From Bryobacteraceae bacterium (GTDB taxonomy: Bacteria > Acidobacteriota > Terriglobia > Bryobacterales > Bryobacteraceae), in the NCBI GenBank assembly GCA_026129905.1, contig JAHCHE010000027.1:58123-122122 (forward strand): a DNA stretch of 64,000 bases, written 5' to 3'. Shown here piece by piece: positions 28,210 through 39,938 of the stretch (positions within the stretch are counted from its first letter, which is position 1; each line of letters begins with the position of its first letter). The notes beneath the pieces are model-generated. The model was not told where the DNA came from. It was given only the letters and a program-made list of their open reading frames with translations, and did not search any database. The position numbers and the translations under genes are program-made.

Positions 28210-28284
28210 CACGCAGGGGGAGACCCCGGGCCATTGTACGGTACACTGGCTTGTCACGCTGGGGTTCGGCATGGGAGGCGCGCT

Positions 28285-29118
28285 TTGGCAGACGTAGCTC
28301 TCTTTCTCTCGCCGCATCTGGACGACGCCGTGCTTTCGTGCCCGGGGCGTATTCAGCGGCTGGCGGGGGCGGGAAGCCGGGTGGTGGTCGCCACCGTGTT
28401 CACGGAAGCGGATGCCGCGGCTGCCACTCTGTATCGCAACCGCCGGGCAGAGGATAAGCGGGCCGTTCGATCGCTCGGAGCGACGCCACTGCACCTGGGC
28501 TTCCTGGATGCGCCATATCGTTCGGCCGAATACCGCGATTTCCGGGAGATCGTATTCGGAGAGGCGGCGGAATACGCGGGAACGTGCAGGCGAGTGACGG
28601 AGGAGATCCGGACGTTAGTTGGCCGGCTTCAGGCACGAACGGTACTCGGTCCGCTGGCGGCGGGGAACCATGTCGATCACAGGTTGGCGCGGGACGCCGC
28701 GCTGGCGGCGGTGGAGACGTCCCGGCTCCTTTTCTACGAAGACCGGCCTTATGCGTTCGTCCGCGAGCAGGTGCGACACGTGCTCGGGAAAAGCATGGCG
28801 GCGAAGGCGGCGCGATTCTGGCGGCGCTACTTTGAGGTCACCTACGTCAGGACCTATCTTGGCGGAACCAGCCGCGACGAGGTGATCGGCGCGTGGAGCC
28901 GCGTTCCGCCATTTCCGCGGCAATACAGACTGCGAAAGGCCGAAACGGTTGTCCTCCGGCCAAGTGAATGGGCCCGGGCCACCGAGGCCATTCGACTATA
29001 CCGCACGCAGATCGACGACCTGTTTTCCGGCGAAATGGAGCTAAATGCCCTTTACAGGGAGAACCCGGAGACGCTCTACCGGGTACGGCGTTCGATGGTC
29101 GGCAATGACGAATCGTAG
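28285..29118 (+). CDS. PIG-L/LmbE-family deacetylase
   Basis: A 277-residue zinc-dependent deacetylase. The metal-binding motif PHLDDAVLSCPG is near the N-terminus, the third ligand is in the AAGNHVDHRLARDAA segment (about residue 135), and the Rossmann-like strand VVVATVFTEAD lies between. PIG-L enzymes remove acetyl groups from N-acetylglucosamine-type sugars. The TTG at 28285 gives MADVALFLSPHLDD and has GGGAGG six bases upstream; an in-frame TTG at 28234 would add an unrelated N-terminus. It follows the glycosyltransferase and glycosidase-like genes, forming a probable glycan-processing group. Confidence 0.9.
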   Translation: MADVALFLSPHLDDAVLSCPGRIQRLAGAGSRVVVATVFTEADAAAATLYRNRRAEDKRAVRSLGATPLHLGFLDAPYRSAEYRDFREIVFGEAAEYAGTCRRVTEEIRTLVGRLQARTVLGPLAAGNHVDHRLARDAALAAVETSRLLFYEDRPYAFVREQVRHVLGKSMAAKAARFWRRYFEVTYVRTYLGGTSRDEVIGAWSRVPPFPRQYRLRKAETVVLRPSEWARATEAIRLYRTQIDDLFSGEMELNALYRENPETLYRVRRSMVGNDES

Positions 29119-29124
29119 TCTCGG

Positions 29125-32100
29125 TCAGCTTCGCGCGCCGTCCAGAAACTCGCGAAGCTGCGCCGCCAAGACCTGGACATTGGGCTCCCTCAACACCTCG
29201 ATTCCCTTCCCAGGCGCGACGCGCTCGACGATCTCGCCATCCACGGCTCCTCCCCAAAAAGCGCGATAGTCCGCCCGTTCCTCGCTACCCCGCAAATACA
29301 CGAGCGGCCCTCGATACGCCGCGGCGGGACGGTACCCGCGGCTGGCATCCACATGATATGCTCGCAGCCGCCGGGCGTGGAGCCGTTGCGCGAGACGCCC
29401 CCCGCCGTTCCAGCCCGCCGAAGCGCCCGCCGAAGCGATCGACGCCGCGGCGACATCCATCATGCGCTCGAACCGCAGACGGCCACGCCGGCCGAAGTAG
29501 GAGACCACTCCGGCTATCCCGCCTTCCGCTCTCCGCGCGTGATAGCCGACGCTGCCGCCCACTCCCTCCACCGTCTTCCATTCGCCGTCCGTGTTGATGG
29601 CGGCAAGCAGTCCCACGCGCTCGCCGGCCGCCTGCATCTGCCGCGCCATCTCGAGCGCCAGGTACGCGCCCATGCAGTAGCCGGCCAAGCAGTACGGCCC
29701 GCGAGGCTGGAGCGTACGGACCTCGTCCACGTACAGCGCGGCCAAGGCCTCCACCGTCCGCGGCATGCCGGCCACATCCCGCAGCCCCGCCGACTGCAAC
29801 CCGTAGAGGGGCTGGTCTTCGCCAAGGCGTAACGCCAGTTCCCGGTAGAACAGCACATCGCCGTCATTGCCGTGCGCGCAATACAGCGGCAGGCGCGACC
29901 CTCGCGGCTGAATCGGAACCAGCGACGCCCAACTCGCCTCGTACCCTTTCTCCGCGATGGTTTCCGCGAGTTGTTCGATCGTCGGCGCGGCCAGCAGCGC
30001 CGCCAGCGGCAGCCGCAAGCCCATTTCCCGCTCGATGCGGGTGAAAACCTTTACCGCGAGCAGCGAATGTCCGCCCAGGTCGAAGAAATTGTCGCGAACG
30101 CCGACTCTGCGCAGCCTGAGCGTTTCCTCCCAGATCGCCTTCAACCGCGCTTCCAGCTTGTTGCGCGGGGCCTCCGATTCGGGCGAGGCGGAACGCGCCC
30201 GAACCGGCGGCGGCAGCGCGACCCGGTTCACCTTGCCGTTCGGAAGTAACGGGAAGTCATCAAGCACAATCCAATCCGAAGGCATCATGTACTCGGGGAG
30301 ACGTTGCCGCGCGAACTCGCGCAGGCCCGACCGAGTCAGACTTGCGCCATCCCGCGGCGCGACGTACGCCGCCAGCGCCTTGGCGCCGCCGGGCGGTTCC
30401 CACACCGTGACCGCCGCCCGGCGAACCTCCGGGCACTCGGCGAGCGCCGCTTCCACTTCGCCCGGCTCGATCCGGTAGCCGCGTATCTTCACCTGTTCAT
30501 CCACGCGGCCCAGGAATTCGATGTGGCCGTCCGGCAAGTAGCGCGCCAGGTCGCCCGTGCGGTAGAGCCGCTCGCCGCCCGCGCGGAACGGATCCGGAAT
30601 GAAGCGCTCCGCCGTCAGTCCCGGCTGGTTGATGTAGCCTCGCGCAAGTCCGTCGCCTCCGATGTACAGCTCTCCCGGGACGCCCGGCGGTACGGGCTCA
30701 AGCTGCCGGTCCAGTACGTAGACGCGGGCGTTGTCGATAGGACGGCCGATCGGGACGGTACGAAGCTTCCGGACCGGCTCGCAACGATAGTAGGCGCAGG
30801 CTACCGTCGCTTCCGTCGGACCGTAGCCGTTGAATAGATCCGCGCGCAGCCTCTCGGAAAAGCGCTCGGGGACGCCCAACGGCAGTGTCTCCGCGCCGGT
30901 CGTCACACGCCGCAACAAAGTCAGTTCCGTCAGTCTCGGTTCATCGAGCAGGATCTGAAGTTGCGACGGGATGAAGCAGGCCGCCGTGACTTTGTGGCGA
31001 GCCATGAGATCCACCAGGTAGTCCGTTTCGCCCTCGCGGCCCGGATCAGCCAGCACGAGCGCCGCGCCCGACGCCAATGGCTCGAAAAATTCCCACACCG
31101 AGTCGTCGAAGGAGGCCGAAGCGCGCTGCAGCAGACGGTCGTTCTCGTTGAGCGCGAAGTAGCGCTGCCTCCAGAGCAGGTGATTGACCACGGCGCGATG
31201 GCTCACCATAACGCCTTTCGGTCGCCCCGTCGTGCCGGACGTGTATATGACATAGGCGAGGTTCCGCCCGCTGCCCGGACTTCGCGGGTTGTGATCGGGC
31301 GCCCCCGACGCCAGCGCCTCCGCGATCCATTCTCCGGTGATCCCCATCGCCGAGCCCGCATCCCGCACTACGAAATCCCGCCGGTCCTTTGGATGCGCCG
31401 GGTCGAGCGGAACATACGCCGCCCCCGCTTTCAGAATTGCCAGCAGTCCGATCACCAGCGCCGGCGATCGCTCAATCGAAATCGCGACTCTCGCGTCCGG
31501 CCGCGCGCCCCGCGCCAACAGACGGTGCGCCGCACGGTTGGCGCGACGGTTCAGTTCTCCGTACGTCAACCGGCCCGAATCCCAGATGACAGCCGTGGCC
31601 TCCGGTCTTCGCTCCGCCTGCTGCTCGAAGAGTTCATGGACGCGGGCTTGCTCGTCGAACTCCCTCCCTGTCTCGTTCCACTCGACCACTACTCTCCGCC
31701 GCTCCTCCGGACGGAGCATCGGCAGCAGCGAGACTCTCCGGTCCCGTTCCGCGACGATCGCCTCGAGCAGGTTTCGGTAGTGCCCTATCATGCGGTAGAT
31801 CGTTGCGTCTTCGAAAAGACGGGCGTCGTAGCGGAATGCGCACCGGAGCCCCTCGGGCGCCTCCTTCGCTTCGACGCTCAGGTCCAACCCGCCGATCACG
31901 CCCGAGTCGAACTCGAAACGCTCGAAGCGCAGTTGCTCTACCTCCACCGTCTCCCGCGCCGGCAGGTTGCGGAGCTGAAACATCGTCTGAAAGAACGGCC
32001 ACCGGTCCGGATGGCGCTCCGGCCGCAATTCCTCGACGATCTTTTCGAACGGCGCCTCCTGGTTCGCGTAGGCGCCAAGCGCGGTTTCCCGCACCCGCGC

Positions 32101-33120
32101 CAGCAACTCGCGAGCGGTGAGTTCGGGCGTTATCTGCGTCCGGAAGACCAGGACGTTCATGAAGCAGCCGATCAGCTCTTCGGTTTCCACGCGGCCGCGG
32201 CCCGCGATCGGCACGCCAATGACGATATCCTCCTGGCCCGCGTAGCGCGTCAGCAACAACTGCAAGCCCGCCAGCAGCGTCATGAACAAGCTGACGCGCT
32301 CCAGGCGGCTCACCCGTTTCAGCGCCGCGGTCAGGTCCGCCGCCAGCGTGCAGGCGTGCGATCCGCTGCGGTAGCTCCTTCCCGCCGGCGCGTCGCGATC
32401 GGCCGGGAGTTTCAGCGATGCGGGCGCTCCGGCCAGTTTCCTCCGCCAATACTCCAATTGCGGGGCCAACGCCGCGTCGTTCCATCGCTGCTGCTGCCAT
32501 GCGGCGAAATCCGAGTACTGAATCGGCGGCGCCGCCAATGGCGAAGCGTCGTTGCGCGCGAACGACCGGTAGAGCGTTTTCAGCTCGTTGACGAAAACCG
32601 TTTCCGACCAGCCGTCGAAGATGATGTGGTGCATCAGCGCCAGCAGCGCGTGCTCCTCGCCTCGAAGCCGAAGCAGGATCACGCGGAAAAGCGGGCCGCT
32701 GGCAAGGTCGAACGGACGCGAGGCCTCCGTTGCAGCGATCCGGCGCGCCTCGCCTTCGCGCGCCTCCGGGGGGATTCCCGTCAGGTCCCGCGTCTCGATC
32801 GGAACAGGCGCCGGCGGCATCACCACCTGCCGCGGTTCGCCGTCCTGAGGAGGAAACACCGTCCGCAGCGTCTCGTGTCGCCGCGCGATTTCGTTCAGCG
32901 CCCTCGCGAGAACCTCAACGTCCAGCGCCCCGGACAGGCGGAGCGCCAGCGGCCGGTTCGAAATGGGGCTTGCGGGATCGAACTCGTGAAGCAACCAGAT
33001 GCGCTTCTGCGCCGTGGAGAGCACCGCCGGCCCGGAGAACGCGCGCCTGGGAATACGGCTCGCGGCGCGGACGCCGGCGCTTCCAGCCGCCAGCGGCGGC
33101 GACGATTCCGCGGCGCTCAC
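29125..33120 (-). CDS. Nonribosomal peptide synthetase module C-A-PCP-TE
   Basis: A 1331-residue single-module NRPS. Condensation domain about 30-465 with the intact HHIIFDG (164-170). Adenylation domain about 485-970 with YTSGTTGRPKG, FNGYGPTE, YRTGDLARYL, GRVDEQVKIRGYRIEPGE and the catalytic-Lys segment NGKVNR. The substrate pocket, aligned by eye to GrsA, reads roughly D-D-W-C-V-T-G-V-A, a code I do not recognise. Carrier domain about 985-1060 with phosphopantetheine Ser1019 in LGGHSL. Thioesterase about 1075-1331 with GYCMG: Cys1149 replaces the usual Ser, Asn1176 and Gly1306 stand where Asp and His are expected. The GTG start overlaps the stop of the preceding ligase gene (GTGA), so translation is coupled. 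Product inferred: one amino acid carrying an acyl group supplied by the ligase. Unknown compound. Confidence 0.93.
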   Translation of the reverse strand: MSAAESSPPLAAGSAGVRAASRIPRRAFSGPAVLSTAQKRIWLLHEFDPASPISNRPLALRLSGALDVEVLARALNEIARRHETLRTVFPPQDGEPRQVVMPPAPVPIETRDLTGIPPEAREGEARRIAATEASRPFDLASGPLFRVILLRLRGEEHALLALMHHIIFDGWSETVFVNELKTLYRSFARNDASPLAAPPIQYSDFAAWQQQRWNDAALAPQLEYWRRKLAGAPASLKLPADRDAPAGRSYRSGSHACTLAADLTAALKRVSRLERVSLFMTLLAGLQLLLTRYAGQEDIVIGVPIAGRGRVETEELIGCFMNVLVFRTQITPELTARELLARVRETALGAYANQEAPFEKIVEELRPERHPDRWPFFQTMFQLRNLPARETVEVEQLRFERFEFDSGVIGGLDLSVEAKEAPEGLRCAFRYDARLFEDATIYRMIGHYRNLLEAIVAERDRRVSLLPMLRPEERRRVVVEWNETGREFDEQARVHELFEQQAERRPEATAVIWDSGRLTYGELNRRANRAAHRLLARGARPDARVAISIERSPALVIGLLAILKAGAAYVPLDPAHPKDRRDFVVRDAGSAMGITGEWIAEALASGAPDHNPRSPGSGRNLAYVIYTSGTTGRPKGVMVSHRAVVNHLLWRQRYFALNENDRLLQRASASFDDSVWEFFEPLASGAALVLADPGREGETDYLVDLMARHKVTAACFIPSQLQILLDEPRLTELTLLRRVTTGAETLPLGVPERFSERLRADLFNGYGPTEATVACAYYRCEPVRKLRTVPIGRPIDNARVYVLDRQLEPVPPGVPGELYIGGDGLARGYINQPGLTAERFIPDPFRAGGERLYRTGDLARYLPDGHIEFLGRVDEQVKIRGYRIEPGEVEAALAECPEVRRAAVTVWEPPGGAKALAAYVAPRDGASLTRSGLREFARQRLPEYMMPSDWIVLDDFPLLPNGKVNRVALPPPVRARSASPESEAPRNKLEARLKAIWEETLRLRRVGVRDNFFDLGGHSLLAVKVFTRIEREMGLRLPLAALLAAPTIEQLAETIAEKGYEASWASLVPIQPRGSRLPLYCAHGNDGDVLFYRELALRLGEDQPLYGLQSAGLRDVAGMPRTVEALAALYVDEVRTLQPRGPYCLAGYCMGAYLALEMARQMQAAGERVGLLAAINTDGEWKTVEGVGGSVGYHARRAEGGIAGVVSYFGRRGRLRFERMMDVAAASIASAGASAGWNGGGRLAQRLHARRLRAYHVDASRGYRPAAAYRGPLVYLRGSEERADYRAFWGGAVDGEIVERVAPGKGIEVLREPNVQVLAAQLREFLDGARS

Positions 33121-34889
33121 GTTTGCCGCTCCGCCTCCCCGGCCAGTAGCGCCTCGATGATGGCCGCCTGGTCCTTCACCGTGGATGCATCGAAGAACGA
33201 CGCCACGGTCAGCTCCACCTCCAGCCGGCTGCGAACCCGCGAAACCACCTGCGTCGCCAGCATCGAATCGCCGCCAAGTTCGAGAAAATCGTCGTCCAGG
33301 CCCACCGGCGCCACGCGAAGCACTTCCTCCCAGATCTCGGCCACGATCTTCTCCACCTCGGATTGCGGCTCGCAGCGCGGCTTCCCAACACCGTCCGCCG
33401 CGCGCCGGTGGTCGCCGACCCCCAGCCGCTCAGCGAGTCCGATCCGCTGAAGTTTTCCCGTCGGGCCTTTCGGAATTTCCTCGAGGAAAACGATCGTAGC
33501 CGGGACTTTGAACGGCGCCAGCCGCGACGCCGCGTATTTCCGGATCTCGGTCGCCGTAGCGGATTCTCCATCGCGCAACACGACCGCGGCGGCCACCGCT
33601 TCGCCAAGCGCGGTATCAGGGGCCGCGAAAACCACCGCCAGCGACACAGGCGGATAGTCCAGGATGACCTCTTCCACCTCGCGCGGAGAGATCTTCTCGC
33701 CGCCCCGATTAATGATCTCCTTCAGCCGCCCCGTCAGCGTCAGATAGCCGTCCTCGTCCAGGAATCCTTGGTCGCCTGTGCGGAACCACCCGTCGACAAA
33801 GGCACCGGCGTTCGCCTCGGGATTGCCTTCGTAGCCGCGAGTAACGTTCGGGCCGCGCAGAAGCACCTCGCCGTCGACCACCCGGACTTCCGGCCCGGCC
33901 GGCAACCCGACCGTACCCGGCTTGCGCCGCGCCGGCGGCAGGGGATTGCTGGCGATCTGGTGCGCCGCCTCGGTCATGCCGTAGGCTTCGATCACCGGAG
34001 CCCCAAACGTCTGCTCCATTTGCGCCATCAGTTGCGGCGCCAGCGGCGCCGACGACGAACGGATGAATCGAAACCGGCGCGCGCCGTTCTTCCGCGCCTG
34101 CGCCAGGATCGACTGGTGCATTGTCGGGACGGCCGTATACCAGGTGGGCTGCGTGGCGTCCACCCAATCGAGAAACCGCGGCGCATTGAATCCCGGCGAG
34201 CAGACGACGCTTGCCCCCGCCCATAGCGACGCCAGCAGACCCGCCACCAACCCGTGAATGTGAAACAGCGGCATGATGTTCAGACACCGGTCTTCCGCCG
34301 TAAGGGCGAGACTCGCCGCGACGCTCTCCGCGGAGGCGCAGAGGTTCGCGTGGGTCAGCGGCACGATCTTCGGCCGCGACGTTGTCCCGGAGGTGTGCAG
34401 TACCAGCGCGACGTCGTCCGGCGCGGCGGTCAGATCATGCCCGTCCGGCCCCTCCCTCGCGTGGCGCACGGTGAACATGCCCGCCGGCGCCGAACTTGGC
34501 GCATCGATCTCCAGCACCCGGATCCCCCGCTTCCCGGCAACCGCAACGGCCGGTGAATCCGAGCCGGCTTCCACCACCACGACCTTTGCGTTCAGGTCCG
34601 ACAGGCAGAAATCGAACTCCTCGGCCCCGTAGGAGGGGTTGAGCGGCGCGCTGGCCCCGACGGCGCTTGCCGAAAGTACGGCCGTCGCCATCGCCGGGCC
34701 GTTGGGCAACACGATCGCCACCCGGTCCCCGCGCGTCACGCCCCAGCGGCGCAGCGCCGCCGCTGTCGCGGCGAGGTGACCGCGAAGTCCCGCGTAAGTC
34801 AAGGCCGGACGCTCCAACCCGGAGATGGCGCAACGCGCCGGACAACTTTGCGCGCGAGCCTCCATCAGCTCGGGAAGCGTGAGACGCAT
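33117..34889 (-). CDS. AMP-dependent acyl/carboxylate ligase fused to a carrier domain
   Basis: A 590-residue protein. Residues 1-500 are an ANL-superfamily adenylating enzyme with HTSGTTSRPKIVPLTH (P-loop), NIMPLFHIHGLVAGL, EAYGMTEAAHQIASNPLPP, FRTGDQGFLDEDGYLTLTGRLKEIINRGGEKISPREVE and the catalytic Lys in PTGKLQR. By memory it resembles oxalyl-CoA synthetase/AAE3-type ligases most. Residues about 510-590 are a carrier domain with phosphopantetheine Ser in LELGGDSMLATQ. This layout suits a loading module that activates a carboxylic acid and hands it to the condensation domain of the next protein. It lies three bases after DUF3326 and overlaps the NRPS start. Confidence 0.92.
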   Translation of the reverse strand: MRLTLPELMEARAQSCPARCAISGLERPALTYAGLRGHLAATAAALRRWGVTRGDRVAIVLPNGPAMATAVLSASAVGASAPLNPSYGAEEFDFCLSDLNAKVVVVEAGSDSPAVAVAGKRGIRVLEIDAPSSAPAGMFTVRHAREGPDGHDLTAAPDDVALVLHTSGTTSRPKIVPLTHANLCASAESVAASLALTAEDRCLNIMPLFHIHGLVAGLLASLWAGASVVCSPGFNAPRFLDWVDATQPTWYTAVPTMHQSILAQARKNGARRFRFIRSSSAPLAPQLMAQMEQTFGAPVIEAYGMTEAAHQIASNPLPPARRKPGTVGLPAGPEVRVVDGEVLLRGPNVTRGYEGNPEANAGAFVDGWFRTGDQGFLDEDGYLTLTGRLKEIINRGGEKISPREVEEVILDYPPVSLAVVFAAPDTALGEAVAAAVVLRDGESATATEIRKYAASRLAPFKVPATIVFLEEIPKGPTGKLQRIGLAERLGVGDHRRAADGVGKPRCEPQSEVEKIVAEIWEEVLRVAPVGLDDDFLELGGDSMLATQVVSRVRSRLEVELTVASFFDASTVKDQAAIIEALLAGEAERQT

Positions 34890-34892
34890 GTC

Positions 34893-36242
34893 TTACGTGG
34901 CGGCCGCCTCCACCGGAGGAGCCTCTTCCCGGGCCGGGCGCGCAACGCGCAGCGGTCCGGCCAGAGGCCGCCGCAGGCTTTCAAGCGCGATCCCTTCCCG
35001 CAACGCGAGAATCACCCCTGCCGCCTCGAGATAGGACTCCACCTCGATCGCGTTCGGCATCCGCATCCTCGCATTGGTTATGTCGAGGATCGTCTGGTTT
35101 TCCCGCACGGCGATCAGCGGAATATCGTTGAATTCCGCCGCCAGAGCGGGAATGCCGCCCAGGCAGGACGCGGGCGTCACGATCGCGATCACGTTGTTCA
35201 GCGAGATGAAGTGGGGCGGCAGGTTCCACAAGTCGGCCGCCGGGACGATGCGCGGCGCCTTCGCCAGCCCTTTCAAGACGGAAAAATAATGAGGCGTCGA
35301 GATGAACTCGGCCGACGCGCGCGGATTGCGCGTCGATTTCTCTTTAATGTCCTGATAATACGGCAGAGGCGCGTGAGCCGTTGGAATTCGGAATATTTTC
35401 GAGATCAAATGCGTTATAATCGCTTCAATTCCTCCCGATGGGTTCGGAATTTCTCCGGCGAGGTGCCGCGCGAACATTTCCGCCGTGACGCCGTGGATTA
35501 CCGACACGCCGCCGGCCGCCTGCGCTCCGCGCGCAATCAGCAGTTCCACCGCGTCGAGAATGGCCTCCGGCCGCAACACTGTCCCGGCGGCGCAGCCGGT
35601 CCGCGACCATTCGATGCGCACCCCGATCTCCTCGTCCAGGACCGCGTACAGGCCGCAATCGATCCCCTTCGCCGCTCGCGCCGCGTTCAGCGTGTTGAGG
35701 ACGTCGTCCAGGTACTCGAGGCCCGTCGGGTCGATGAACGTCCCAACCTTGTTCGCCGTGACCGGAACCAGCGCCACGTGTCCCAGCAGGAAATCGTCCA
35801 GGCTCTTGCCTTCGACGTACAGGACGTTGGAGGCCATCTCGTTCAGCTCGGAAGCGTTCACCGCGTTCGGGTGCGCGATCAGCAGGTCCGCCGCGGCCGC
35901 CAGCAGATTCGTCGCCGGACAAGCATCGCCGGCGTACCCGCCGAATTCGCAGCGAATCCCCGTCGGAATCACCTGGACGACCGCCGCGGGCGATGCCGGA
36001 TGCGTCTTTCGCCTCGGCGTCAGCAGCTCGATCGAGCGGAAGCGGTCCGCGTACGGCTCGCTATCGGCGAATCGAACCACGGTCGCCTCCACCACGATCT
36101 CGTCCGCCGCGGCCTCGACCACGGAGAATCGCAGCGGATATCCGTCCGGCGCCACCGCCTGCGCGAAGGGCCCCGCGATCGCTTCAAGCCAGCTCGATCG
36201 CCTGTGTACCGCCAGGCGATATCGCCCGTTTTCCAGTCTCAT
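34893..36242 (-). CDS. DUF3326 family protein, first gene of the NRPS operon
   Basis: A 449-residue soluble protein that I place in the DUF3326 family from VQVIPTGIRCEFGGYAGDACPATNLL, LIAHPNAVNASELNEMASNVLYVEGKSLDDFLLG and VSVIHGVTAEMFARHLAGE. Function is unknown. The conserved glycine-rich and Cys segments (GDACPATN, VTPASCLGGIPALAAEFNDIPLIAVREN) look like an enzyme that binds a small molecule or nucleotide, but no reaction should be claimed. The ATG at 36242 has AGGGAG six bases upstream; an in-frame start at 36317 would add a sequence unlike the family. It is the first gene of a three-gene operon, which points to supplying or modifying a building block. Confidence 0.8.
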   Translation of the reverse strand: MRLENGRYRLAVHRRSSWLEAIAGPFAQAVAPDGYPLRFSVVEAAADEIVVEATVVRFADSEPYADRFRSIELLTPRRKTHPASPAAVVQVIPTGIRCEFGGYAGDACPATNLLAAAADLLIAHPNAVNASELNEMASNVLYVEGKSLDDFLLGHVALVPVTANKVGTFIDPTGLEYLDDVLNTLNAARAAKGIDCGLYAVLDEEIGVRIEWSRTGCAAGTVLRPEAILDAVELLIARGAQAAGGVSVIHGVTAEMFARHLAGEIPNPSGGIEAIITHLISKIFRIPTAHAPLPYYQDIKEKSTRNPRASAEFISTPHYFSVLKGLAKAPRIVPAADLWNLPPHFISLNNVIAIVTPASCLGGIPALAAEFNDIPLIAVRENQTILDITNARMRMPNAIEVESYLEAAGVILALREGIALESLRRPLAGPLRVARPAREEAPPVEAAAT

Positions 36243-36371
36243 GCGCGCTCCCTGGGACCCGGAATCTCCCCGGTTAACCGATTCTCGCACGACCTCTCGC
36301 GCCGAACAAACCGTCATTCTTACCGGCGCGGCCGCGTGAGCCGGGCCTCGCCGTTACCGCATACTGGAGGT

Positions 36372-37025
36372 GTGGAGTACCTCGCCACATTGCTCCTGGT
36401 CCGGCACGCGCACACCGATTGCCGGAACAACGGCCACAGTCTGCTCTGCGGCCGGCACGACGCGCCGCTCAGCGCGCTCGGCTGGCGCCAGGTGGAGACT
36501 CTGCGAGGCGCGCTGAAAAACGGCGTTCCGGTGGACGCCGTCTATACGAGCCCTCTGCGCCGCGCGATGGCGACGGCGACGGCGGCGCCGCCCCGGCTTC
36601 TCCCCCATGCGCGGGCTCTGCGGTCGCTGGCCGAGATCAACTGCGGGCTGGTGGACGGCATGCCGCTCGCCCGGCTGAAGGTCGACTATCCGGAACTCTG
36701 GCAGCGCAACTGGGCCCAGGACGATCCCTCGTTCCGGTGGCCTGGAGGCGAATCGTACGAGCAGATGCGGCGCCGCGTGCTGCGGGCGGCGCGCTGCCTC
36801 GGAAGCAGACATCTGGGCCAGCGGATTCTGCTGTTCACGCACGCCGGCTTCGTAAATCAGTTGCTGGGCGCCGTTGCCGGACAAAGCCCGGCGCGCTGGG
36901 ATAACTTCCGGCCCGCCAACGCCAGCATCACGGAGTTGCGCTTCGATGGACGGCGTTTTGAAGTGGTACGCTTCGACGACCGCTCCCATCTGCCTGCCGC
37001 CAGTATTTGTCCGCCCTCCGAATGA
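36372..37025 (+). CDS. Histidine phosphatase family protein (phosphoglycerate mutase-like)
   Basis: A protein of about 217 residues with the branch-1 histidine phosphatase fold: catalytic LLLVRHAHTD (the RHxH motif), YTSPLRRAMATA, the acid residue in SLAEINCGLVDG, GGESYEQMRRRVLRA and the second His in LLFTHAGFVNQLLG. Such enzymes remove phosphate from small molecules (alpha-ribazole phosphate, sugar phosphates and others). The substrate here is open. The start is uncertain: the GTG at 36372 has GGAGG too close to it and a TTG at 36390 is possible. It is divergent from the DUF3326 operon, and its 3' end overlaps the converging kinase-like gene by 98 bases. Confidence 0.83.
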   Translation: MEYLATLLLVRHAHTDCRNNGHSLLCGRHDAPLSALGWRQVETLRGALKNGVPVDAVYTSPLRRAMATATAAPPRLLPHARALRSLAEINCGLVDGMPLARLKVDYPELWQRNWAQDDPSFRWPGGESYEQMRRRVLRAARCLGSRHLGQRILLFTHAGFVNQLLGAVAGQSPARWDNFRPANASITELRFDGRRFEVVRFDDRSHLPAASICPPSE

Positions 37026-38001
37026 TCCGCAGCCAGTCGCGCGCCGCGCCGGCCGACCGGTTCCGCGCCGCATCCGTACGCCCCTTGTCGCCCGTCACCG
37101 CCAGATGATAGCGGAGCGCTCCGGCCATGGCGTTCGAAGCCGCGGCCAGCCAGTAAAGCCGCCGGAATTCACGATCGAGACGGTGAGCCGGACCGGACCA
37201 TTCGATGTAGCGCTTGAGCAGCGTGTCGTGACGCCGCTTGACCCGGGGCTCCCAGAGAGCCAGCGACTGCAACCAGGAGGAAACGTCCTCCAGCGGCGAG
37301 CCGAGCCGGGCTCGCCCCCAGTCGAGCAGAACGGCGTCAATGTCCTTCGCGCCCGCGCGAATCACGACATTGCCGGAATGTACGTCGCCGTGCAACGGTG
37401 CGATTCCCGTTCCCGCTTTCAAATACGCCCGCATTGCGCTCATTTCCCCCGCTACGCGGTCAATCGTCTGCCCCATGGCCGTTGCGCCGGCCCGCGAGCG
37501 CGCCAGCGGCAGGCGGTGATACAGCGCGGCAGTCTCGGCTGCGGAAGCCTCGATCTCCCGCTCAATGTTGGGATCGTCGAACCCCGATCGAAAGTTGCGC
37601 ACAGGCCGGGTGTGTAACTGCGCCAGTCGGCGTATGACCGCGGACGTCGCGTCCTCGTCCACCCAGGGCCACCGCCGCGCCGCCGGTATCCACTCCAGGA
37701 ACAGGTAGGCTTCGTCAGGCGTTTCACGGTGGACGCCAAGCAGTCGCGGGGCCACCGGCGGCCCGCCCGATGCGTCCAAAGCGCGGTACGCGTTCAGTTC
37801 GCGAAGGCCCCGGCCCCATAGACGCTTCGCCACAAAACTCGCCCCGCGCTCCTGTCCGCGCTGCGGGAACGTTACGTCCACTCGGGAAATCCCGCATGAT
37901 TCCAACCCGCCTGACAAGGGAGTTGCCACGACGCGGTCAATCGGGCCAAAGCGCTGCGCGGCGAAGGAAGCGAAGATACCGGCACTGCACCCCGTTTTCA
38001 T
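36928..38001 (-). CDS. Aminoglycoside-phosphotransferase-like kinase
   Basis: A 357-residue member of the APH/choline-kinase fold. Visible motifs are the catalytic loop PLHGDVHSGNVVI, the metal-binding AVLLDWGRARLGSPLEDVSSWL and an N-lobe with the ATP-binding Lys in SFVAKRLWGRG. These enzymes phosphorylate hydroxyls of small molecules or sugars. The substrate is unknown; nothing suggests antibiotic resistance. Start: ATG 38001 (MKTGCSAGIFASFAAQRFG) fits the family; an ATG at 38055 is in frame. The last 30 or so residues after IIRRADKYWRQ look like a run-on tail that overlaps the phosphatase gene on the other strand. It follows the SDR gene closely. Confidence 0.8.
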   Translation of the reverse strand: MKTGCSAGIFASFAAQRFGPIDRVVATPLSGGLESCGISRVDVTFPQRGQERGASFVAKRLWGRGLRELNAYRALDASGGPPVAPRLLGVHRETPDEAYLFLEWIPAARRWPWVDEDATSAVIRRLAQLHTRPVRNFRSGFDDPNIEREIEASAAETAALYHRLPLARSRAGATAMGQTIDRVAGEMSAMRAYLKAGTGIAPLHGDVHSGNVVIRAGAKDIDAVLLDWGRARLGSPLEDVSSWLQSLALWEPRVKRRHDTLLKRYIEWSGPAHRLDREFRRLYWLAAASNAMAGALRYHLAVTGDKGRTDAARNRSAGAARDWLRIIRRADKYWRQADGSGRRSVPLQNAVHRSATP

Positions 38002-38065
38002 CGCTATTTCAACCTTAACAGGTAAAAGGAGCCGATGCGAGTCTCGGCTCGCCATGCCGCTGCCG

Positions 38066-38827
38066 TCAAACCATGAACATGCCGCCGTTCAGCTCGATGG
38101 TCTGTCCGATGATATAGCGGGACCCGTCCGAACAAAGGAACAGGATCGCGTCCGCCATCTCCTCGTTGTCGGCCAGCCGGCCAAGCGGAGTGCTTTGGAC
38201 CACTTTCTCCAGCATCTCCCGCGTCGAGAATTGCTGGTGAAAGTAGTTGTCCACGGTCCCGGGACTGATCGCGTTGACGCGGATGCCTTTGGGCGCCAGT
38301 TCCCGCGCCAGCCCTTTCGTCATCGCCGAGACGGCGGCTTTCGCGGCCGCGTAGACGGTTGCGCCGGGCCCTCCGCCGGTCCGCGCCGCGATCGAGCTGA
38401 CGTTGACGATCACGCCGCGCCCGTTGCGGATCATCGGCCCGGCGGCCGCCTGCGACAACTCCCACACGCTCTTCACGTTCAGGTTCATCACCTGTTCGTA
38501 GAGCGCGCGCGTGTACGTCTCAAACGGCACGCGCTGCACCAGCGAGCCGGCGTTGTTCACCAGGATGTCAATCTCCGGGCGGGCCTTCACGGCGGCGACG
38601 CAAGCGTCGATGCCCGCCTCGGTATCGAGGTCGGCCTGGACGATTTCGCACCCCGCGCCGGCCGCGCGCACGGCCTCCAGCGTCCGCTCCGCGCCTTCCT
38701 TGTACCGGCCGTATTGGATCACGACGCGAGCCGCGCCGGAACGCGCCAGGGCCACGGCCGTCGCCGCGCCGATGCCGCGCGAGGCGCCGGTGACGAACGC
38801 GCTCGCGCCCGAGAGTTGCTGTGCCAT
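38066..38827 (-). CDS. Short-chain dehydrogenase/reductase (FabG-like)
   Basis: A 253-residue classical SDR: NAD(P)-binding FVTGASRGIGAATA, LVNNAGSLVQRVPFE, catalytic Ser in VIVNVSSIAARTGG, Tyr and Lys in VYAAAKAAVSAMTKGLARELAPKGIRVNAISPGTV, and the usual C-terminus LCSDGSRYIIGQTIELNGGMFMV. It reduces or oxidises a carbonyl/hydroxyl group; FabG-type beta-ketoacyl reduction is one possibility, but the exact substrate is not readable. The frame opens further upstream, but ATG 38827 gives the family's normal N-terminus (MAQQLSGASAFVTG). It lies 46 bases after TerC and 64 bases before the preferred start of the kinase-like gene. Confidence 0.93.
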   Translation of the reverse strand: MAQQLSGASAFVTGASRGIGAATAVALARSGAARVVIQYGRYKEGAERTLEAVRAAGAGCEIVQADLDTEAGIDACVAAVKARPEIDILVNNAGSLVQRVPFETYTRALYEQVMNLNVKSVWELSQAAAGPMIRNGRGVIVNVSSIAARTGGGPGATVYAAAKAAVSAMTKGLARELAPKGIRVNAISPGTVDNYFHQQFSTREMLEKVVQSTPLGRLADNEEMADAILFLCSDGSRYIIGQTIELNGGMFMV

Positions 38828-38873
38828 AAGGACGTTGATTTTACCAGACGCCGCGGCCCGGTCCGCCCGCGGA

Positions 38874-39938
38874 CTACGAGCGCGCGTGCGGCTCCGCCTC
38901 GACGGGCGCCGCCACATCGTCCGCCGGAGCGCCGCGCTTTCGCGAGAAATAAAGCGACAGAACGATGGAAGTCAGAATCACGGTCAGAATGAAGGCCAGC
39001 GAAATATGGATGGGAAAATGGCCGCCGAACAGGTGGTTCAGCAATACCATCTTCAGACCAACGAACATCAGCACGATAGCCAGGCCGTACTTCAACAGGT
39101 AAAAGCGAGTAATCGCGCCGGCCAGCAGAAAATACATCGACCGCAGCCCGAGAATCGCGAAGATGTTCGACGTGAACACCACCAGCGGCTGGCGCGTGAT
39201 GGCGAATATAGCGGGCACCGAGTCGATGGCGAACATGATGTCCGTCATTTCCAGGAACAGTACGGTGATCAGCAGCGGCGTCGCAAACAGTACGCCGTTT
39301 GTCCTTACCAGGAAATGTCCGCCTACTAGCTGCGTGGTAACCGGCACGTAGCGGCGGAACGCCCGGATAACAAGGTTCTTCTCCGGTTCCACCTTCTCCA
39401 TGTCCGACCGCATGAGCTTGATGCCGGTGAAGATCAGGAACAGGCCGAACACCACCACCACCCACTGGTACTGGATCAGCGCGGCCCCGATGGCAATGAA
39501 CGTCGCGCGAAAGATCAGCGCGCCAAGGATGCCGTAGAACAGGACCCTGTGCTGAAACCGGTGCGGAACCCCAAAATACTGGAACACGACCACGAAGACA
39601 AACAGGTTGTCCACCGAAAGTGACAATTCGATAACGTACCCGGTGAGATACTCCAGCGTGACTTGGTTCGCCAATCTTCCGGCGTCCCACCCGGGTAACG
39701 AGGCCAGGCGCGGGTCGCCGGCGAATTTCCAGCTCGCCCAGGAATGGAGGCCCCAGGCGAACAGCATCGCCAGCGACACCCACGCGATGCACCACAGCGT
39801 GGCCTCGCGAAACTCTACCGTGTGCGCCTTGCGGTGAAACAGCCCCAGGTCGAGCGCCAGAAGGATCAGGACAAGGGTCGTGAAGCCCAGGTAGTAGGGC
39901 CAGTACTCGGCAAATGGGAAAAGGTCGATATTGGGCAT
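38874..39938 (-). CDS. TerC/Alx-family membrane protein
   Basis: A 354-residue integral membrane protein with about nine helices. Family motifs are clear: ELSLSVDNLFVFVVVFQYFGVP, FRATFIAIGAALIQ, LFLEMTDIMFAIDSVPAIFAITRQPLVVFTSNIFAILGLRSMYF and LIFTGIKLM. The conserved membrane Asp residues (SVDN and AIDS) are present. TerC/Alx proteins are linked to tellurite resistance and manganese export, the latter shown for E. coli MntP-independent Alx/TerC members. It opens a run of minus-strand genes with the SDR and the kinase-like protein after it. Confidence 0.94.
   Translation of the reverse strand: MPNIDLFPFAEYWPYYLGFTTLVLILLALDLGLFHRKAHTVEFREATLWCIAWVSLAMLFAWGLHSWASWKFAGDPRLASLPGWDAGRLANQVTLEYLTGYVIELSLSVDNLFVFVVVFQYFGVPHRFQHRVLFYGILGALIFRATFIAIGAALIQYQWVVVVFGLFLIFTGIKLMRSDMEKVEPEKNLVIRAFRRYVPVTTQLVGGHFLVRTNGVLFATPLLITVLFLEMTDIMFAIDSVPAIFAITRQPLVVFTSNIFAILGLRSMYFLLAGAITRFYLLKYGLAIVLMFVGLKMVLLNHLFGGHFPIHISLAFILTVILTSIVLSLYFSRKRGAPADDVAAPVEAEPHARS

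Follow-up and report, generated by a model that had tools for sequence, protein, structure and literature searches.

What does a protein of the family DUF3326 contribute to the assembly of a small peptide? The question is raised by three genes that form one operon on the minus strand of a stretch of 64,000 nucleotides from a Bryobacteraceae bacterium (GenBank assembly GCA_026129905.1, contig JAHCHE010000027.1, positions 58,123 to 122,122 of the forward strand), which as a whole we refer to as the window: according to its open reading frames (ORFs) and a Pfam scan, the genes encode a DUF3326 protein, an AMP-forming ligase that is fused to a carrier domain (the ligase-carrier), and a nonribosomal peptide synthetase (NRPS) with a condensation (C), an adenylation (A), a peptidyl carrier (PCP) and a thioesterase (TE) domain. 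Here, we have compared this operon with other DUF3326 loci, and we have found that DUF3326 genes precede NRPS genes in distant bacteria and that the A domains of these NRPSs form one clade; it is likely that DUF3326 makes or shapes the amino acid that is used by the NRPS. The parts are of known kinds, while the combination and the partner family DUF3326 are new within the literature searched.

Recurrence of DUF3326 next to NRPS genes

The gene context is known for eight loci of the DUF3326 group to which the protein of the window belongs (the window and L004-L010). At four of the seven other loci, the DUF3326 gene directly precedes, on the same strand, an NRPS gene with a C domain: L004 is from the Anaerolineae (Chloroflexota), L005 and L007 are from the Nitrospiraceae (Nitrospirota), the sequence of L007 stopping within the NRPS module, and L008 is from the Proteobacteria (Pseudomonadota). 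The spacing, as measured between ORF ends, is 0 to 134 bases. When the window is counted, with its ligase-carrier gene in between, the pairing occurs at 5/8 loci. Since the window genome (G000; 8.57 Mb, 71 contigs, one DUF3326 gene) holds only six C domains, chance adjacency is remote. In our reading, the pairing is either ancient or passed on as a unit. An Imm5-like putative immunity gene lies directly after the pair at L004 (11977-12513).

An earlier note on this DNA, made from the sequence alone, had proposed the three genes as a candidate new biosynthetic system and had named, as one result that would speak against it, that DUF3326 and the NRPS are never found together elsewhere. The four loci above pair them, and the DUF3326-NRPS link has thus held, while the ligase has fallen out of the recurring unit: the exact order of the three genes occurs at none of the other loci examined, and the ligase-carrier is a local addition. 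As a conserved partner the ligase has been rejected, the best-scoring matches in the genomes of L004, L006, L007 and L008 being 29-37% identical. Among the matches listed, other ligase-carriers are 52-57% identical to that of the window, and two in the genome of L005 (52-53%) lie away from its DUF3326 locus. In a protein search for close orthologues of the NRPS, two-module proteins rank top, and among the 120 listed there was no evident single-module orthologue.

The pocket and the lineage of the adenylation domain

The motifs of the C, A and PCP domains are all present in the NRPS of the window (HHIIFDG, YTSGTTGRPK, GYGPTE, GRVDEQVKIRG, PNGKV and LGGHSL). The nine pocket positions, taken by the GrsA numbering and without the lysine, give the code DDWCTGGVA for the window, DDWCTGGIA for both L005 and L008, and VDWDTGLIA for L004; three of the four complete linked A domains therefore have the code DDWCTGG[V/I]A, which is found in 0/245 background stretches. 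This background consists of the A-domain stretches from the 119 best NRPS matches and is not a random sample; six stretches are without a code and some are gapped. The closest stretch matches at 5/9 positions, and 28 stretches match at 4/9. Aspartate at both 235 and 236, as in the window, L005 and L008 (L004 has V235 and D236), is seen in none of the 245, and the single background stretch that combines Asp 236 with Trp 239 reads VDWVVSLAD, which we take to be a beta-alanine-like code. In the pockets of beta-amino acids, Asp 236 holds the amine. The string DDWCTGG was not found in the literature searched.

A tree of 43 A domains was built from the 14 top-scoring BLAST matches to each of five focal domains and from 15 domains taken at random. 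In it, the four A domains linked to DUF3326 fall into a single clade (100/98), though their identity is only 45-55%. Because the linked domains form one clade and three of the four have the pocket in common, the link between DUF3326 and these NRPSs is specific.

DUF3326 within split adenylation domains

DUF3326 genes also lie within split A domains, in a subgroup from another genus. In G345 (L019 3-13922), the frame of a multimodular NRPS ends with the A1 region of an A domain, the DUF3326 gene follows with an ATGA overlap, and a further frame opens just before A2; in G1095 (L044 1-18999), of the same genus, the arrangement is the same, with overlapping stops and starts, so that the DUF3326 gene overlaps both of its neighbours in the two genomes. 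The repetition in G1095 makes an error of assembly less likely. DUF3326 genes of the same subgroup (61% identical to that of L019) are present without an adjoining NRPS in G1098 and G1143; G1143 also has, about 4 kb from the gene and on the opposite strand, a condensation-like match of 33%, and the sequence of G1142 ends within the DUF3326 gene. In interrupted A domains, too, the A-domain region takes in foreign sequence, but as an in-frame insertion, whereas in G345 and G1095 the DUF3326 gene between A1 and A2 is a gene of its own that overlaps its neighbours. The A domain of the window is whole, and is not an interrupted one.

A second DUF3326 group and polyamine-type decarboxylases

The second group of DUF3326 proteins comprises 12 loci, of which L012, L051 and L052 have been placed by identity and not in the tree. 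Directly upstream of the DUF3326 gene there is a SpeD-like gene at six loci (L012, L015, L016, L026, L051 and L052), overlapping it by four bases at L016 and L026, and an NspC-like gene at three (L011, L017 and L020). The two kinds of decarboxylase belong to different Pfam families; for this reason, DUF3326 probably either supplies the substrate of an amino-acid decarboxylation or consumes its product. In the SpeD-like proteins of the six loci, the position of ESH, which we take to be the motif around the pyruvoyl serine of SpeD, reads TST, TSN or TSS. At L011 (4853-6013), a gene of the glutathionylspermidine-synthase type lies a few genes upstream of the NspC-like and DUF3326 genes.

According to PMC10407285, which does not name DUF3326, SpeD homologues include decarboxylases of AdoMet, of ornithine and of arginine.

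The DUF3326 protein: family, fold and distribution

The protein of the window matches PF11805 with 274 bits against a gathering cut-off of 25, over profile positions 2-337 of 337. Its start is placed at the second ATG of the ORF 34893-36317, where its homologues begin in the alignment. Among 50 DUF3326 sequences 55 columns are invariant, many of them polar (H124, N126, N129, E144, E273, H290, R308, E312 and K324 are examples), and for this reason the protein looks enzymatic. The structural search that the earlier note had suggested has been run and leaves the family without an assigned function: the AlphaFold2 model is good (mean pLDDT 90.2, pTM 0.90), with an N-terminal alpha/beta piece and Rossmann-like lobes, and the fold search gave no confident relative in the Protein Data Bank (PDB). 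Its Rossmann-type pieces match GT-B glycosyltransferases, LacI and lumazine synthase with middling Z only, and no function has been drawn from these matches. A sequence search of solved structures gave best E values of 0.35 with the protein and 0.092 with a 50-row profile, both of which we have taken as chance.

The protein search returned 1510 DUF3326 homologues at E <=0.001; among the 120 listed, that of the window aside, identity is 63-77%. Genome counts, each of which includes the centre genome, are low: 1/101 in the family of the window and 3/396 in its phylum, 1/249 in the class of L004, 1/198 in the phylum of L005, 2/147 in the order of L008, 3/176 in the order of L007 and 5/72 in the order of G345. 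DUF3326 is sporadic and has probably moved horizontally; a plasmid search at 1e-5 found no match to it. In a tree of 35 rows, many forks of which are weak and in which long branches meet, there are a ferredoxin-linked cyanobacterial pair, the second group (9 rows) and the group of the window (23 rows), beside which the protein of G345 is a long branch. The remaining 15 of the 23 rows are database proteins that were read without gene context; P0030 among them is the L004 protein.

DUF3326 is seldom named in the literature searched, where its Pfam and InterPro numbers were not found. In PMC4284462, a cyanobacterial gene that clusters with fed3 is described as a conserved hypothetical protein; this gene and that of the window are alike in being DUF3326, the window copy having a full-domain match. 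The two ferredoxin-linked copies form a branch of their own, whereas that of the window falls within the group linked to NRPSs. Near the cyanobacterial DUF3326 genes of L009 and L010 there are related methyltransferase genes (L009 9104-9961 and L010 6741-7505; 39% identical).

The ligase-carrier and the thioesterase

The closest solved relatives of the ligase are 5ie0 (2.6e-116), 6qjz and 8aff, named oxalate-CoA ligase or oxalyl-CoA synthetase, which we take to be plant AAE3 types and yeast Pcs60. The oxalate residues H214, S289 and H319 of AtAAE3, for which no source turned up in the literature searched, correspond to H210, S280 and H310 of the ligase. Of the 119 ligase relatives listed, all 119 have H210 and S280, and 118 have H310; in seven ordinary acyl ligases (G000, G494 and G498), the counts are 7/7, 1/7 and 0/7. 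By homology and by these residues the ligase is of the oxalyl-CoA synthetase type, but it differs from the solved enzymes in being fused to a carrier, in standing in an NRPS operon, and in scoring 429.3 bits against the FadD7 family (NF004511, PRK05852), below the equivalog cut-off of 650.

In the window genome, a relative of the ligase-carrier (49% identical) shares one frame of 2071 aa with C and A domains, which supports the role of a loading module. There are three further oxalyl-type ligase-carriers in this genome (C54:14203-15963, C14:122304-124058 and C70:135832-137595), one in a frame of 879 aa and one in an NRPS frame; the oxalyl-type ligase family is large (8000/8000 scored candidates). 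The literature on oxalate, carrier protein and NRPS, judged by title, gave nothing on such a system.

In enterobactin biosynthesis, a single-module NRPS works with a separate loading ligase and carrier (EntE/EntB-EntF). The operon is alike by its domains, an acid being activated on a separate carrier and one amino acid being added by C-A-PCP-TE, and it differs in the loader of the oxalyl-CoA-synthetase type, the unusual A pocket, the DUF3326 partner and the TE. The nucleophile elbow of the TE is GYCMG, i.e. with a Cys nucleophile, and Lys-Gly stands in the place of the catalytic His, while the other 10 of 11 aligned TEs have a His within two columns. PF00975 covers less than half of its profile (positions 2-100 of 226), and the domain does not have the nucleophile together with the triad His of a type I thioesterase. 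Product release is uncertain because the usual His is absent; it may be slow, unusual or in trans. The earlier note had called the NRPS unit complete-looking; given the TE, this may be too strong.

Proposed explanation and its alternatives

Tentatively, and as a possibility rather than a probability, we propose that the operon is a minimal assembly line, in which DUF3326 would supply an amine-bearing amino acid, the NRPS would activate it and the ligase-carrier would load oxalate, the product being a small N-oxalyl amino acid. DUF3326 would make the building block, an amino acid with an extra amine, as suggested by its association, across distant bacteria, with a single lineage of A domains, and by its other group, which follows decarboxylases of two unrelated families; its product would keep the carboxylate where an A domain activates it, and would lose it where a decarboxylase follows. 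The A domain would then activate this amino acid via its DDW pocket, a diamino-type acid being favoured because of the Asp at 235 and 236, the latter being the residue that holds the amine in the pockets of beta-amino acids; the ligase is predicted, from homology and residues, to adenylate oxalate, or a small acid that closely resembles it, and to load its own carrier; the C domain, with HHxxxDG intact, is predicted to form the amide; and the way of release would be uncertain. We infer as well that the A domain takes the DUF3326 product, that the acid is oxalate and that an N-oxalyl amino acid results. The logic of one acid and one amino acid, already put forward in the earlier note, is still expected from a ligase-carrier and a single C-A-PCP module; the oxalyl-type ligase, the atypical TE, the decarboxylase-linked group and the split A domains go beyond that note.

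Several observations weigh against this proposal. At three loci of the same DUF3326 group (L006, L009 and L010) no C-domain NRPS adjoins the gene: at L006 (6716-11299), a 2OG-Fe(II) oxygenase, an ATP-grasp ligase (LAL_C2, weak) and a gene of unknown kind precede DUF3326, a row of genes that may form a peptide route without an NRPS, and there is also a divergent A-PCP-reductase; at the cyanobacterial L009 and L010, no match to the NRPS of the window was found in the fetched flanks. L005, L007 and L008 are without an adjacent ligase and L005 is without a TE, so that the product need not be the same across loci. The A-domain code of L004 differs, matching at 5/9 positions; by BLAST the background domain P0246 (60.6%) is closer to it than any other linked domain is, the forks within the linked clade are weak (83/74, 97/45), and the background NRPSs were compared by their A domains alone. 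At L045 and L046 the DUF3326 gene, which is of the split-A subgroup, has no NRPS beside it, and in the second group no SpeD-like or NspC-like match was found within the fetched flanks of three Burkholderiaceae loci, L013, L014 (Trinickia soli) and L018. Two proteins of each kind were scored with NCBIfam, giving 27 and 28 bits for the SpeD-like proteins of L016 and L026 (cut-off 75.65) and 271 and 256 bits for the NspC-like proteins of L011 and L017 (cut-off 409); these scores are under the equivalog cut-offs and do not assign substrates. The fold search pointed to no function, Pro occupies the H310 position in 2/4 other ligase-carriers checked, and the TE looks defective. The pathway as a whole is predicted, the activity of every step being read from genes and sequences.

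The strongest rival, which we consider doubtful but serious, is that the direct counterpart of DUF3326 is the A domain or the carrier-bound amino acid, DUF3326 being an in-line tailoring enzyme or an A-domain partner; interrupted A domains carry inserted methyltransferases, and MbtH proteins assist A domains. The genes that stand between A1 and A2 in two species and overlap their neighbours at stops and starts, and the position directly upstream of the NRPS module in L004, L005, L007 and L008 would suit such a partner, but DUF3326 also occurs without an NRPS, beside SpeD-like and NspC-like genes and near a ferredoxin gene in two cyanobacteria, and so a free small-molecule enzyme fits better than an A-domain chaperone. 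It is improbable that the substrate of DUF3326 is the amine released by the decarboxylase (agmatine, putrescine or decarboxylated AdoMet) and that, in the NRPS operon, DUF3326 tailors the completed product or gives self-protection against it by modifying or transferring it: two unrelated decarboxylases do occupy the same upstream place, and the range of SpeD homologues in PMC10407285 agrees with such amines, but no SpeD-like or NspC-like match was found in the flanks of L004-L010, L019 and L044-L047, nor, by Pfam only, in those of the window, and the common A-domain code suggests that DUF3326 provides something to the NRPS and does not act after it.

An architecture in which the ligase loads another acid, e.g. 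another small dicarboxylic or oxo acid, is likewise rather improbable; the score of 429 out of 650 bits and the Pro at the H310 position allow for it, but the names of the top solved relatives and the retention of all three residues among the relatives listed, set against the ordinary acyl ligases, point to oxalate. The sporadic and probably horizontal occurrence of DUF3326 (1/101, 3/396) and the absence of an NRPS at 3/8 loci would suit an ordinary small NRPS that stands by chance beside a spreading gene; this is very improbable in view of one A-domain clade with a common rare code in distant bacteria, and of genes that touch or overlap in the window, L004, L019 and L044.

Returning to the building-block proposal, a wider form of it, which we regard as unlikely though worth stating, is that DUF3326 is a new class of enzyme that builds carboxy-polyamine-like diamino acids, with branches that feed decarboxylases (giving unusual polyamines) or dedicated NRPSs (for capping, here with oxalate), and with a cyanobacterial ferredoxin-associated form. 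If true, the metabolism of polyamines and that of peptide antibiotics would share a hidden step in DUF3326. With the clade of A domains, their unusual pocket and the two types of decarboxylase, DUF3326 acquires a testable hypothesis, namely which amino acid it concerns, and the three-gene operon is small enough to be expressed whole.

Layout and boundaries of the operon

The features of the operon are listed in the table below. Read directly from the DNA, the stop of DUF3326 is followed by three bases and then by the ATG of the ligase, and the end of the ligase gene and the start of the NRPS gene share the bases GTGA, which agrees with the gapless packing described earlier.

Table. Features of the operon in the window (positions of the window).
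Feature	Position	Strand	Basis
DUF3326 gene, 449 aa, first in operon	34893..36242	-	PF11805 E 2e-81; ORF open to 36317
AMP-forming ligase fused to carrier, 590 aa	33117..34889	-	AMP-binding, AMP-binding_C, PP-binding
Ligase carrier (PCP) domain, LGGDSM	33159..33344	-	PP-binding at residues 516-577; motif
Single-module NRPS C-A-PCP-TE, 1331 aa, GTG start	29125..33120	-	Pfam; TIGR01733 above cut-off
Condensation domain, HHIIFDG intact	31696..33027	-	PF00668 4.9e-100; motif
Adenylation domain, pocket code DDWCTGGVA(K)	30232..31629	-	PF00501 3.8e-88; code comparison; tree
NRPS carrier (PCP) domain, LGGHSL	29956..30147	-	PF00550; motif
Thioesterase domain, approximate limits, GYCMG, usual His absent	29131..29889	-	PF00975 positions 2-100 of 226; alignment of 11 TEs
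Intergenic stretch DUF3326 / His_Phos_1, presumed promoter region	36243..36371	-	position between divergent genes

The operon is bounded upstream by a divergent His_Phos_1 gene (36372-37025, plus strand) and at its other end by a convergent PIG-L gene (28234-29118, plus strand); for this reason the unit consists of three genes, DUF3326 being the first, without a transporter, regulator or tailoring gene, as the earlier note had also read it. The divergent neighbour bears out the first position of DUF3326, while the essential step that was deduced from this position is a matter of inference. No sigma-70-like site was found in the presumed promoter region, and the promoter and terminator scans were at chance level. 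The G+C content is even over the window (0.61-0.68 in 2-kb steps), so that base composition does not mark the operon as an island. Upstream of the operon, also on the minus strand, there are genes for an APH-type kinase, an SDR and TerC (36928-39938), which have been rejected as operon members, since the divergent His_Phos_1 gene intervenes.

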